From Desulfurobacterium indicum (GTDB lineage Bacteria; Aquificota; Aquificia; Desulfurobacteriales; Desulfurobacteriaceae), in NCBI RefSeq assembly GCF_001968985.1, contig NZ_MOEN01000015.1, forward strand, positions 1-35,248: DNA of 35,248 nt, read 5' to 3'. The position numbers were made by a program, and so were the translations under genes. Shown piece by piece: positions 6,522-35,248 of this stretch (the first letter of the stretch is position 1; every line of letters starts with the position of its first letter). The notes below the pieces were generated by a model that saw only the letters and a list, made by a program, of their open reading frames with translations, was not told the DNA's origin and did not search any database.

Positions 6522-7019
6522 ATGTTCGGAGGATTTTTCGGTAGAAATAGAGGATTTGATCCTTTTGAGGACTTCTTCAGAATTTCTAAAGAAATGGAAA
6601 GAATGCTTGCAGAACTTACACGTTCTTTCGGAGAGGTTCCCGGATTTGAAGTAGGCTTTGAACCGAGAGTGGAGATGTATGAAACACCTGATGAATTGGT
6701 TGTAAGAGCTGAAATGCCGGGACTTGATAAAGATAGCATTGACGTAAGAGTAAGAGGAAATCACCTTATTATAAAAGGTGTTAAAAAACAGGAACAAAAA
6801 GAAGAAAAAGAGAATGTTTTCTTCAGCGAAAGCTTCTACGGTGAGTTTCAGAGAATAATACCTCTACCTGTTGAGGTAAAAGAAGATGGAATCGAAGCAA
6901 CCTACGATAAAGGAATCCTCGAAATAAGACTTCCAAAAGCCGAAACAGCGAAAAAAGAAGTAAAAATAATAGTAAAAGAACCCGAAGAGAAAGAAAAGGA
7001 AGACAACGAGAAAGAATAA
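6522..7019 (+). CDS. Hsp20 / alpha-crystallin family small heat-shock protein
   Basis: This 165-residue ATP-independent chaperone would hold unfolding proteins in the cytoplasm. An N-terminal arm (residues 1-45) rich in Phe, Gly and Arg is followed by the alpha-crystallin domain at about 46-145. That domain begins PRVEMYETPDELVVRAEMPG and contains the late GILEIRLPK strand signature. The tail is very acidic (EPEEKEKEDNEKE), and a clear I-X-I/V oligomerisation motif is not obvious. It has its own promoter and terminator, so it is monocistronic. A strong G-rich SD precedes the ATG. Confidence 0.92.
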   Translation: MFGGFFGRNRGFDPFEDFFRISKEMERMLAELTRSFGEVPGFEVGFEPRVEMYETPDELVVRAEMPGLDKDSIDVRVRGNHLIIKGVKKQEQKEEKENVFFSESFYGEFQRIIPLPVEVKEDGIEATYDKGILEIRLPKAETAKKEVKIIVKEPEEKEKEDNEKE

Positions 7020-14190: not shown

Positions 14191-14598
14191 ATGGCAAAAA
14201 AAATTACAGAAATCGAAGGAATCGGAAGTGCCTATGCCGAAAAACTGGCACAAATAGGTATAACTTCCGTGGAAGAACTGCTTGAAAAAGGAGCTACAGC
14301 AAAAGGAAGAGAGGAGATTGCCGAAAAAACCGGAATATCTAAAAAAGTAATTTTGAACTGGGTAAACAGAGCAGACCTTATGCGCGTTAAAGGCATCGGA
14401 GAAGAATATGCAGATCTTTTGGAAGCAGCTGGCGTTGATAGCGTTCCTGAACTTGCAAGGAGAAATCCAGAAAACCTTTATCAGAAATTAAAAGAAGTTA
14501 ACGAGCAAAAGAAACTGGTACGCCAGATTCCAAGTGTAAAACAGATAGAAAAATGGATAGCACAGGCAAAAGAACTTCCTAAAAAAGTTACACATTAA
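14191..14598 (+). CDS. DUF4332-like helix-hairpin-helix protein
   Basis: This 135-residue protein contains two helix-hairpin-helix units, IEGIGSAYAEKLAQIGI near residues 8-24 and VKGIGEEYADLLEAAGV near 69-85. The second half is Lys-rich. The layout fits DUF4332. Such GIG hairpins usually grip the DNA backbone without sequence preference, so a DNA-binding or architectural role is a reasonable inference. No enzymatic motif is seen. It has its own strong promoter and a GGGGG SD, suggesting good expression. Confidence 0.75.
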   Translation: MAKKITEIEGIGSAYAEKLAQIGITSVEELLEKGATAKGREEIAEKTGISKKVILNWVNRADLMRVKGIGEEYADLLEAAGVDSVPELARRNPENLYQKLKEVNEQKKLVRQIPSVKQIEKWIAQAKELPKKVTH

Positions 14599-15665: not shown

Positions 15666-16017
15666 TGGTGGAGGTGGCGGGAATCGAACCCGCGTCCGGA
15701 GATGCGGTCCGGATAGCTTCTACACGCTTAGCCTGTGTTTTACCGTTTCGCTTCGGAGTTAGCCCACAGGCAGGCGCTCCGAAGCTATCCCCGTAAATTT
15801 TCGGCTATCACCTCCGGGGAAAAGGTGATAACCTATCTCCCCTCTCTGTCGCCCTACCTGCAGCCGGGGAGATGAGCTACAGGGGGCGTCGCTGCGTTAT
15901 TAGGCAGCGAGAGCTAAGTTTTCGTCGGCAGCTATTTGCTGTGCCTTTTTTACGAGGTAGGCGCCTCGGCGTGCCGCTATCCGAACCGTTGCATCCCCGT
16001 CGAAACCTGTCACCCCC
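15666..16017 (-). ncRNA. ssrA: transfer-messenger RNA (tmRNA)
   Basis: On the minus strand the RNA begins GGGGGTGACAGGTTTCGACG, the hallmark tmRNA 5' end. It ends with a T-arm-like GGGTTCGATTCCC and an encoded CCA. The 5' GGGGGTG pairs with CACCTCC near the 3' end to form the acceptor stem. The tag frame spans 15944-15897 and reads AQQIAADENLALAA followed by TAA TAA. The C-terminal LAA is the usual protease signal. With SmpB this RNA rescues stalled ribosomes and tags the nascent protein. Length 352 bases, one-piece type. Confidence 0.97.
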
Positions 16018-33419: not shown

Positions 33420-34070
33420 ATGGCAGAAGTTGAAAGACTAAAATTAAAAAGAGAAGTGATGCTTAAACTTATCAAAGCCCTGATAGACGGTGAAGAGCTT
33501 GAAAAAGTCTCCGAAATAGTCAGTATGGATCCGAACCTATCATTAAGACTTCTAAAATTTATTAACTCACCATACTTCGGTTTGAGAAAAGAGATAACCT
33601 CCATCGTTCAAGCCGTAGCTTATCTCGGATACCAAAACCTTAAAGATTACATTTTTGTTCTTTTAACATCTTCGCTTCTTAAATCAGCGGATAAGGACGA
33701 AATCGCCAAAATACTCAAACAGGCATTCGCGATGAGATACGTCGCCGAAAAACTCATTCCCGCCCACGCCGATGAAGCATTCATGGTGGGACTACTCGAT
33801 CCTGTCCTCAAAGAAGTCGATGAAGCAGAAATCAAAAAGATACTACAAAAAGCTGGCGTCTCTGACAACATCGTGATGGGGCTTCTTGACGAAGATAGTT
33901 CTCTTTACAGAATAAAAGAATTCACAAAGAAAATTCTTTCATTCTGCGAAAAAGTGTCAAGAAACGAACAGGCTGACTTAAAAGATACAGAAGGTTTATC
34001 TTTCAGCGAAATAGACGAAATATGTAAAAGGGCAGAAAAGGACGCAAAGGCCCTCGTATCTGCCCTATAA
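33420..34070 (+). CDS. HDOD-domain protein
   Basis: This 216-residue protein carries an HDOD domain (PNLSLRLLKFINSPYFGLRKEITSIVQAVAYLGYQ is the typical core, near residues 38-72). HDOD is an HD-fold that has lost the metal-binding residues; it is often found in signalling and motility control. There is no attached EAL, GGDEF or kinase domain. After about residue 150 the protein is acidic and helical. An AGGAGGGG SD precedes the ATG. A terminator follows, closing the leuC-to-HDOD stretch. Confidence 0.8.
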   Translation: MAEVERLKLKREVMLKLIKALIDGEELEKVSEIVSMDPNLSLRLLKFINSPYFGLRKEITSIVQAVAYLGYQNLKDYIFVLLTSSLLKSADKDEIAKILKQAFAMRYVAEKLIPAHADEAFMVGLLDPVLKEVDEAEIKKILQKAGVSDNIVMGLLDEDSSLYRIKEFTKKILSFCEKVSRNEQADLKDTEGLSFSEIDEICKRAEKDAKALVSAL

Positions 34071-34093: not shown

Positions 34094-34122
34094 AGGCGCC
34101 CTTTAAAGGGCACCTTTTTTTT
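34094..34122 (+). terminator. terminator after the HDOD gene
   Basis: GCCCTTTAAAGGGC is a perfect inverted repeat at 34098-34111, with outer AGG/CCT pairs. A run of eight T's follows at 34115-34122. Confidence 0.85.
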
Positions 34123-34136
34123 ATTTAATGCAAAGT

Positions 34137-34150
34137 CTTGAAAATTCAAG
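34137..34150. promoter_or_regulatory. palindrome over the -35 box of the histone gene promoter
   Basis: CTTGAAAATTCAAG is a perfect 14-bp palindrome that includes the -35 hexamer TTGAAA. It has the size and position expected for a repressor operator. No regulator is known from the sequence. Confidence 0.4.
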
Positions 34151-34166
34151 CCAATATCCCTAAATT
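34138..34166 (+). promoter_or_regulatory. sigma-70-type promoter for the DUF1931 histone gene
   Basis: TTGAAA (34138-34143) and TAAATT (34161-34166) are separated by 17 bases. An AT-rich inverted repeat TTAAAATAATATTTTAA lies at 34181-34197, just before the GGAGGGAG SD. Confidence 0.55.
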
Positions 34167-34207
34167 CTATGTTAGAAAATTTAAAATAATATTTTAAGGA
34201 GGGAGCT

Positions 34208-34657
34208 ATGGCTATCGTCGGTTTCGGAAAACTTGAAACACTTTTCAGAAAAGCGGCCGGACTTGACATTGACAAGAACAAGGCAAAAGCAATCACCGAT
34301 ATCGTTGAAAAGAAACTTTACGACCTGCTTCTCATAGGAGAGAGAAATGCCAAGTATAATGGGAGAGATGTAATATGGGAATGCGATGTTCCACTTACAA
34401 AAGGATTCCTTGAAACTATTCAGAAATTTAAAGAACTGGAAGAACAACTTGAACTGCAAGATATACTGGACTTTCTGGCAACTCAACCACCTCTAAAATA
34501 TCCACTTGAGGCAGAGCTTGAAAACAAACTCCCGGAAATCGTAGGAACACTTCTGTTCATAATCGCAAGAATCATAAAAACTGTTGACGAAGGTTGCCGT
34601 CAACCATCAACAGAAGATATTGAAAGAGCAGGTAAAATTCTCGATCTAACAATGTAA
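34208..34657 (+). CDS. DUF1931 double histone-fold protein
   Basis: This 149-residue protein matches the DUF1931 family (PF09123), known from Aquifex and Thermus structures to hold two histone folds in one chain (a pseudodimer). The N-terminal MAIVGFGKLETLFRKAAGLD and the NGRDVIWECDVPLTKGF segment are the recognisable pieces; the second half repeats the helix-strap-helix plan. Archaeal histones wrap DNA as dimers, so this single chain could bend or coat DNA, but DNA binding by this family is not firmly settled. It has its own promoter, a strong SD and flanking terminators, which suggests steady expression. Confidence 0.85.
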   Translation: MAIVGFGKLETLFRKAAGLDIDKNKAKAITDIVEKKLYDLLLIGERNAKYNGRDVIWECDVPLTKGFLETIQKFKELEEQLELQDILDFLATQPPLKYPLEAELENKLPEIVGTLLFIIARIIKTVDEGCRQPSTEDIERAGKILDLTM

Positions 34658-34658
34658 T

Positions 34659-34680
34659 GAAGGGGGCCACCGCTCCCTTC
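34659..34680 (+). terminator. hairpin after the histone gene
   Basis: GAAGGGGGC (34659-34667) pairs with GCTCCCTTC (34672-34680), nine pairs with one G-U, around a four-base loop. No U-tract follows, so termination may be weak. Confidence 0.5.
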
Positions 34681-34783: not shown

Positions 34784-34809
34784 AGGTAGTGTACGATATT
34801 TTGTGTAAG
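34784..34809 (+). repeat. left terminal inverted repeat of the right-edge IS256 element
   Basis: The inner core ATTTTGTGTAAG matches the reverse complement of the repeat at 50-75, with 18 of 26 positions identical. Confidence 0.7.
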
Positions 34810-34826
34810 CTTGAGAAATGGGATAA

Positions 34827-34865
34827 CCTCCTGGGGAACACCCCACAAATACCAACCCCAGGAGG
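34827..34865 (+). promoter_or_regulatory. leader hairpin sequestering the transposase Shine-Dalgarno site
   Basis: CCTCCTGGGG (34827-34836) pairs perfectly with CCCCAGGAGG (34856-34865), a ten-pair stem with a 19-base loop. The second arm contains the SD AGGAGG, 5 bases before the ATG at 34871. A competing small stem TGGGG/CCCCA (34832-34836 with 34841-34845) would free the SD. Read-through transcripts from outside would carry this stem and translate poorly, as known for other IS families. Confidence 0.65.
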
Positions 34866-34870
34866 CAAAA

Positions 34871-35248
34871 ATGGAACTACAGAAGATTTTACCAGACCTA
34901 GTTAAGGAAGTGGTAAAGCAAACCTTAGAGTCAATCATGACGGCTGAAAGAGAAGTGTTTCTTAAAGAACATGGAGGAACAAAGAACGGCTTTTACGTTA
35001 GAAACTTAGATACTGTTATCGGTAAGCTTGAAAATCTGAGAATTCCAAGAGATAGAGAGGGAAAATTCAGAACAAAGTTGATAGAACCTTATAGAAGAAG
35101 AGATATCAATCTTGAAGACTTAATACTTGGGATGTTTGCCTCTGGTATGAGTGCAAGAGCAGTAGCCCAGGCTCTTGAAAGCGTGTTTGAACTTAAATAC
35201 TCACCCTCAACCATAAGCAAAATATCGCAGGTAACCTTAGAGGAAATA
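34871..35248 (+). CDS. IS256-family transposase, N-terminal part
   Basis: The first 126 residues of a Mutator/IS256-type DDE transposase are visible. It begins MELQKILPDLVKEVVKQTLE and continues with KNGFYVRNLDTVIGKLENL, IPRDREGKF, and YRRRDINLEDLILGMFASGM. This is the N-terminal DNA-binding region of the family, where the GxxxRxxxT-L-xxPRDR pattern is typical. The catalytic DDE residues lie beyond the window. The ATG at 34871 has an AGGAGG SD hidden in a hairpin. Confidence 0.9.
   Translation, partial: MELQKILPDLVKEVVKQTLESIMTAEREVFLKEHGGTKNGFYVRNLDTVIGKLENLRIPRDREGKFRTKLIEPYRRRDINLEDLILGMFASGMSARAVAQALESVFELKYSPSTISKISQVTLEEI

Follow-up and report, generated by a model that had tools for sequence, protein, structure and literature searches.

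The window, by which we mean the whole 35,248-nucleotide stretch of DNA that was analysed, carries on its plus strand (34208..34657) a 149-codon open reading frame that starts with ATG and encodes a protein of 149 residues with a calculated pI of 4.86 (21 K+R, 27 D+E). The product matched the PF09123 (DUF1931) profile over positions 1-138 of 138 with an E value of 1.8e-55 and a score of 187 bits, against a cut-off of 21.8 bits, and thus is a full-length DUF1931 protein. Among the histones of bacteria, DUF1931 forms one of two main families. The gene is present in a single copy in the window genome, the named relatives of which are Desulfurobacteriaceae (Aquificota), and no name was returned for its product by NCBIfam. 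In a phmmer search, the nearest solved relative was TTHA1479 of Thermus thermophilus (1WWI; E 1.8e-41), with Aq_328 of Aquifex aeolicus (1R4V; E 3.4e-16) far behind.

An AF2 model built from 37 sequences (pLDDT 88, pTM 0.83) contained two helix-long helix-helix units in one chain, with predicted helices at residues 6-17, 23-50 and 65-75 in the first unit and 83-92, 102-126 and 135-148 in the second, i.e. a predicted double histone fold. The best structure match of this model was 1WWI (TM 0.95), followed by 1R4V (TM 0.82), while H2A-H2B chimeras and the Methanopyrus kandleri double histone 1F1E scored lower (TM about 0.6-0.67). TTHA1479 has its family, length and fold in common with the window protein and is 46% identical to it, but groups in the tree with actinobacterial and cyanobacterial plasmid copies, whereas the window protein belongs to Aquificota. 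Aq_328 shares family and fold, but is only 29% identical and falls into a long-branched, separate subfamily despite the common phylum. The window gene is an ordinary member of a known family. The first-pass annotation of this DNA had named a DUF1931 double histone with an open cell role; the full-length profile match and the fit of the model to 1WWI bear out the name.

The DUF1931 gene is flanked by an HDOD gene, an RNA-methyltransferase-like open reading frame and an insertion sequence. The HDOD gene (33420..34070, +) lies upstream and encodes a protein of 216 amino acids (PF08668, 3.5e-21). The insertion sequence is represented by the left end of a mutator/IS256-family element (34785..35248, +; PF00872, 9.1e-25), the transposase of which begins at 34871 and is cut by the contig end. 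This segment gave 41 matches in its own genome; most of these begin at query base 93-96 and lie at contig ends, and the genome contains about 30-40 near-identical copies of the element, full or partial. IS256-family copies are very often found at the contig ends of the 1.6-Mb, 61-contig assembly, and a recent burst of the element probably explains its 61 contigs.

At the window locus, DUF1931 is not clustered with Hsp20, YfdX, HdeD, Clp or Trx genes. A gene for an Hsp20 small heat-shock protein (6522-7019) lies 27 kb from DUF1931 and is itself unclustered with other stress genes. The window genome has one YfdX gene, on another contig, with no stress cluster in its neighbourhood, and HdeD is absent from this genome. 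The window also contains a DUF4332 helix-hairpin-helix protein gene (14191-14598), unlinked to DUF1931, and a tmRNA gene (15666-16017, -) with the tag ADENLALAA. In two of the four sampled genomes of the genus, G001 and G002 (the latter only 85% complete), the HDOD gene is present and no DUF1931 was found; DUF1931 appears to have been gained or lost within the genus. A phage origin of the gene was rejected, as no phage record matched. In other Desulfurobacteriaceae genera, DUF1931 is divergent from a gene that we take, by reading of the sequences, to be purL, and lies upstream of what are presumably DUF2148 and CorA genes. These were dismissed as divergent or operon partners, since the arrangement is lineage synteny that is not kept elsewhere.

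Upstream of DUF1931 lies a putative sigma70-like promoter, TTGAAA-17-TAAATT (34138..34166, +), with the -35 box at 34138-34143, a 17-nt spacer and the -10 box at 34161-34166. The pattern TTGNNN plus TAAATT, 16-17 nt apart and 36-50 nt 5' of the ATG, recurs in 13 of the 14 Desulfurobacteriaceae genomes carrying DUF1931, which include close relatives and do not amount to 13 independent events. This conservation of hexamers and spacing supports the promoter call. An A/T-rich leader, TTAGAAAATTTAAAATAATATTTTAA (34172..34197, +), is well conserved in genera g1 and g5 and leads to a strong Shine-Dalgarno region, AAGGAGGGAG (34198..34207, +), that is conserved in relatives. Inside the leader is an inverted repeat, TTAAAATA-A-TATTTTAA (34181-34197), a possible leader RNA structure for which three to four related sequences were noted. 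The leader TTAGAAAATTTAAAATA...TTTTAA 5' of the Shine-Dalgarno region is near-identical in two genera (G000, G003, G007 and G012) despite differing upstream neighbours.

An intrinsic terminator of the HDOD gene (34094..34123, +) sits between that gene and the DUF1931 promoter, so that a separate DUF1931 transcript is likely; in the same-genus genome G003, DUF1931 likewise follows a terminator at the equivalent place. Directly 3' of the stop codon is an imperfect hairpin without a T-run (34659..34680, +), possibly a weak terminator, and G003 has a canonical terminator at the corresponding place. As judged from these sequence features, the gene is probably monocistronic. An own promoter and a strong Shine-Dalgarno had both been claimed before and hold, and the earlier claim of a monocistronic gene is retained at the grade of probable.

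A further claim of the first-pass annotation, that a perfect 14-bp palindrome overlaps the -35 box and points to dedicated regulation, perhaps autoregulation, fared differently. An inverted repeat, CTTGAA-AA-TTCAAG (34137..34150, +), does overlap the -35 box, but as a 14-mer it is imperfect: CTTGAAAATTCAAG consists of two perfect 6-bp arms flanking a central AA that is not self-complementary. The sole perfect 14-bp palindrome nearby is GCCCTTTAAAGGGC (34098-34111), the stem of the HDOD gene's terminator. The left arm of the -35 repeat is the -35 box itself, and the right arm lies in the variable promoter spacer. In G003, CTTGAAAAAAAGAA stands where the window has CTTGAAAATTCAAG; the -35 (TCTTGAAA) and -10 (TAAATT) boxes are kept, and AAAAAAAGAAAA takes the place of the right arm. 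The repeat is absent from all 13 other DUF1931-bearing Desulfurobacteriaceae genomes, the same-genus G003 included, although 12 of these keep the promoter hexamers at nearly equal spacing. Because relatives keep the hexamers yet lack the right arm, the comparison speaks for the promoter and gives an operator no support; the annotation had itself named absence of the palindrome from close relatives as one half of what would refute it, and this half came out against it.

Repeats of this type are also about as frequent as expected by chance. In dinucleotide-shuffled versions of the 74-nt leader, at least one inverted repeat with 6-bp arms arose in 43% of cases and one over the -35 position in 15.5%, and exact 6-2-6 repeats number 18 in the 35-kb window. 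CTTGAANNTTCAAG occurs twice in the window genome and 0-2 times in relatives, and a reversed control pattern also occurs 0-2 times. The repeat is accordingly judged a chance one. Its overlap with the -35 box speaks for an operator, but no second site of this kind was seen at other DUF1931 genes, and with non-conservation and chance frequency also against it, we rejected an operator bound here by the DUF1931 protein or by another regulator as a reading with hardly any likelihood. Autoregulation is less likely also because DUF1931 proteins were published as lacking the histone DNA-binding residues (PMC11390915, PMC12701072). CIRCE and HAIR patterns, sought with mismatches in the window and the neighbour loci, gave weak scattered matches, none of them convincing 5' of DUF1931, and these heat-shock operators were rejected. 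This takes a false lead away from the window, a regulatory function of the palindrome being very unlikely.

What the protein itself does is a separate question. Its double histone fold invites the reading that DUF1931 is a nucleoid-associated protein, which would bind or protect DNA in the manner of other histone-fold proteins, perhaps most of all in the heat. Consistent with such a role, basic residues K23, K35, K36, R53, K97 and R131 are conserved in 37 sequences, the gene occurs in every sampled reverse-gyrase Campylobacterota genome, and published data show high expression of the Thermus gene (PMC10627809 Fig. 6, correction PMC11521991). However, the proteins are acidic overall (family pI 4.8-5.6), and with its pI of 4.9 the window protein is not net basic as a genome-packing histone would be. 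Moreover, conservation reaches 90% or more at 16 acidic positions in the same 37 sequences, the histone DNA-binding residues have been described as missing (PMC11390915, PMC12701072), and the gene context is that of proteostasis rather than DNA metabolism. In our own motif reading of the 37 sequences, R53 and D60 are invariant at histone spacing, with V55 at the T position of the canonical DNA-contact motif RxTxxxxD, in agreement with PMC11390915. HBb (Bd0055) and other bacterial alpha3 histones likewise contain a histone fold, but HBb is a single-fold dimer that has DNA-binding residues and bends DNA, whereas in DUF1931 the two folds are fused into a pseudodimer, which is reported to be without them. 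We regard a nucleoid-associated role as unlikely.

The proteostasis context is seen in other lineages. On Rhodococcus and Nocardia plasmids, many of the former being one related group, the gene order is DnaK-GrpE-DnaJ-CbpM-ClpB-TrxA-UBPzf (UBP zinc finger)-TrxR-DUF1931, with DUF1931 last in the run and 13 nt behind the thioredoxin reductase gene; one such plasmid has the identical order with DUF1931 unannotated, and two further records list fewer of the genes. This conserved chaperone-redox operon (L091, L092, L095, L096 and L165-L167), located on large, sometimes mobilizable plasmids, comprises a general stress protein, DnaK, GrpE, DnaJ, CbpM, ClpB, Trx, a UBP zinc finger, a cNMP-binding TrxR and DUF1931. 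In cyanobacteria, a Trichormus plasmid has DUF1931 and GroES-GroEL in divergent orientation, with genes for Hsp20, thioredoxin and DnaK farther on, and GroEL lies near DUF1931 on a Nostoc plasmid. An Aquicella plasmid has two Hsp20 genes ahead of a fragment of DUF1931. The order in Persephonella/Hydrogenothermaceae is prefoldin, YfdX, membrane proteins, DUF1931 and UPF0114 (YqhA-type). Several Campylobacterota have YfdX-DUF1931-HdeD, one locus (L070) also having two Hsp20 genes close by, and in Sulfurovum HtpX directly follows DUF1931. The Rhodococcus, Nostoc, Persephonella and Campylobacterota copies thus lie in stress islands. No clear stress context surrounds the A. aeolicus copies or the one on the Streptomyces plasmid, and the Nautiliaceae copies follow fatty-acid genes. 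A YfdX-HdeD pair at one further locus (L148) lacks DUF1931, and no DUF1931 was found in that genome (G116), which suggests that the gene was inserted into, or lost from, the YfdX-HdeD operon. In the tree, three Campylobacterota sequences (L111-L113) fall inside the Aquificota group, which suggests movement of the gene between Hydrogenothermaceae-type Aquificota and Campylobacterota.

Co-occurrence was counted from profile matches above cut-off in a sample of 200 Campylobacterota genomes, with DUF1931 in 17, YfdX in 25, HdeD-type DUF308 in 38 and reverse gyrase in 11. YfdX was present in 17/17 genomes with DUF1931 versus 8/183 without (Fisher 6e-19, shared ancestry ignored), and HdeD (DUF308) in 17/17 versus 21/183 (Fisher 2e-14, shared ancestry again ignored). 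YfdX lay within 2 kb of DUF1931 in 9, and HdeD in 10, of the 17 genomes. In 61 Aquificota genomes, YfdX was above cut-off in 9/24 with DUF1931 and 1/37 without (P 6e-4). These statistics are inflated by thermophily and shared ancestry, and thermophily, which DUF1931 tracks in Campylobacterota, could lie behind the co-occurrence. The association with stress genes might then be a side effect of lifestyle, DUF1931 being an accessory gene that bacteria living at hot vents carry together with other stress genes but without a common function; it occurs in 11/11 reverse-gyrase Campylobacterota, and many DUF1931 genes, that of the window included, do not adjoin stress genes. Nonetheless, the co-occurrence holds when the 11 reverse-gyrase genomes are dropped (YfdX in 6/6 with DUF1931 versus 8/183; P 5e-8, uncorrected for ancestry). 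In addition, DUF1931 is adjacent in operon-like fashion to YfdX/HdeD and to DnaK-ClpB-Trx in unrelated phyla, including the mesophilic Rhodococcus, Nocardia and Nostoc, and the heat-loving Aquificaceae-type family f4 is mostly without DUF1931. A mere lifestyle effect is, in our estimate, improbable.

A role in heat or protein stress is favored over genome packing because of the stress-gene context, the co-occurrence and the acidity of the proteins. The window gene encodes a predicted pseudodimeric histone-fold protein, probably from a single-gene transcript; the conserved sigma70-like promoter is an ordinary one, and the palindrome adds no dedicated operator to it. Most likely the protein serves as a soluble accessory in the tolerance of protein and heat stress. 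It would act as a scaffold that binds proteins, or as a holdase-like partner to the chaperone/redox machinery, and not as a histone that packs the genome; the molecular act itself (holdase, scaffold or adaptor) is a guess. In line with a working role, the Thermus gene, besides its high expression, was reported to tolerate Tn insertion poorly (PMC13140390), and Tn-seq suggests that TTC1115 of T. thermophilus HB27 cannot be dispensed with freely. Taken as a whole, an ordinary promoter without an operator combined with a stress accessory rather than a genome packer has, we estimate, an even chance of being right. We infer that co-location and co-occurrence with stress genes reflect one common function, and that the window copy keeps this function although it is unlinked to stress genes. 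Against a stress role is the fact that the copies of the window and of most Desulfurobacteriaceae do not adjoin stress genes. The literature searched, beyond which lay most subscription papers and all preprints, yielded no link between DUF1931 and stress.

The neighborhoods overlap in gene content with the transmissible locus of stress tolerance (tLST), which includes sHsp20, YfdX, HdeD, Trx and an HtpX-like protein (PMC8290217). The neighbors of DUF1931 in other bacteria are drawn from this same kit, namely Hsp20, YfdX, HdeD, thioredoxin, an HtpX-like protein and a Clp-type disaggregase, the last being ClpB beside DUF1931 and ClpK in the tLST. On the other hand, PMC8290217 mentions neither DUF1931 nor histones, and no tLST gene adjoins DUF1931 in the window. 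Tentatively, and with somewhat less than even confidence, DUF1931 may be a conserved, horizontally moving part of bacterial heat/protein-stress islands, a chaperone partner or stress scaffold in which the histone fold serves proteostasis and not chromatin. If DUF1931 belongs to the toolkit of chaperones and stress survival, the family would gain a concrete, testable function, with heat and aggregation phenotypes to be sought in Thermus or Rhodococcus, and would illustrate how a histone fold can be put to use elsewhere than on DNA.
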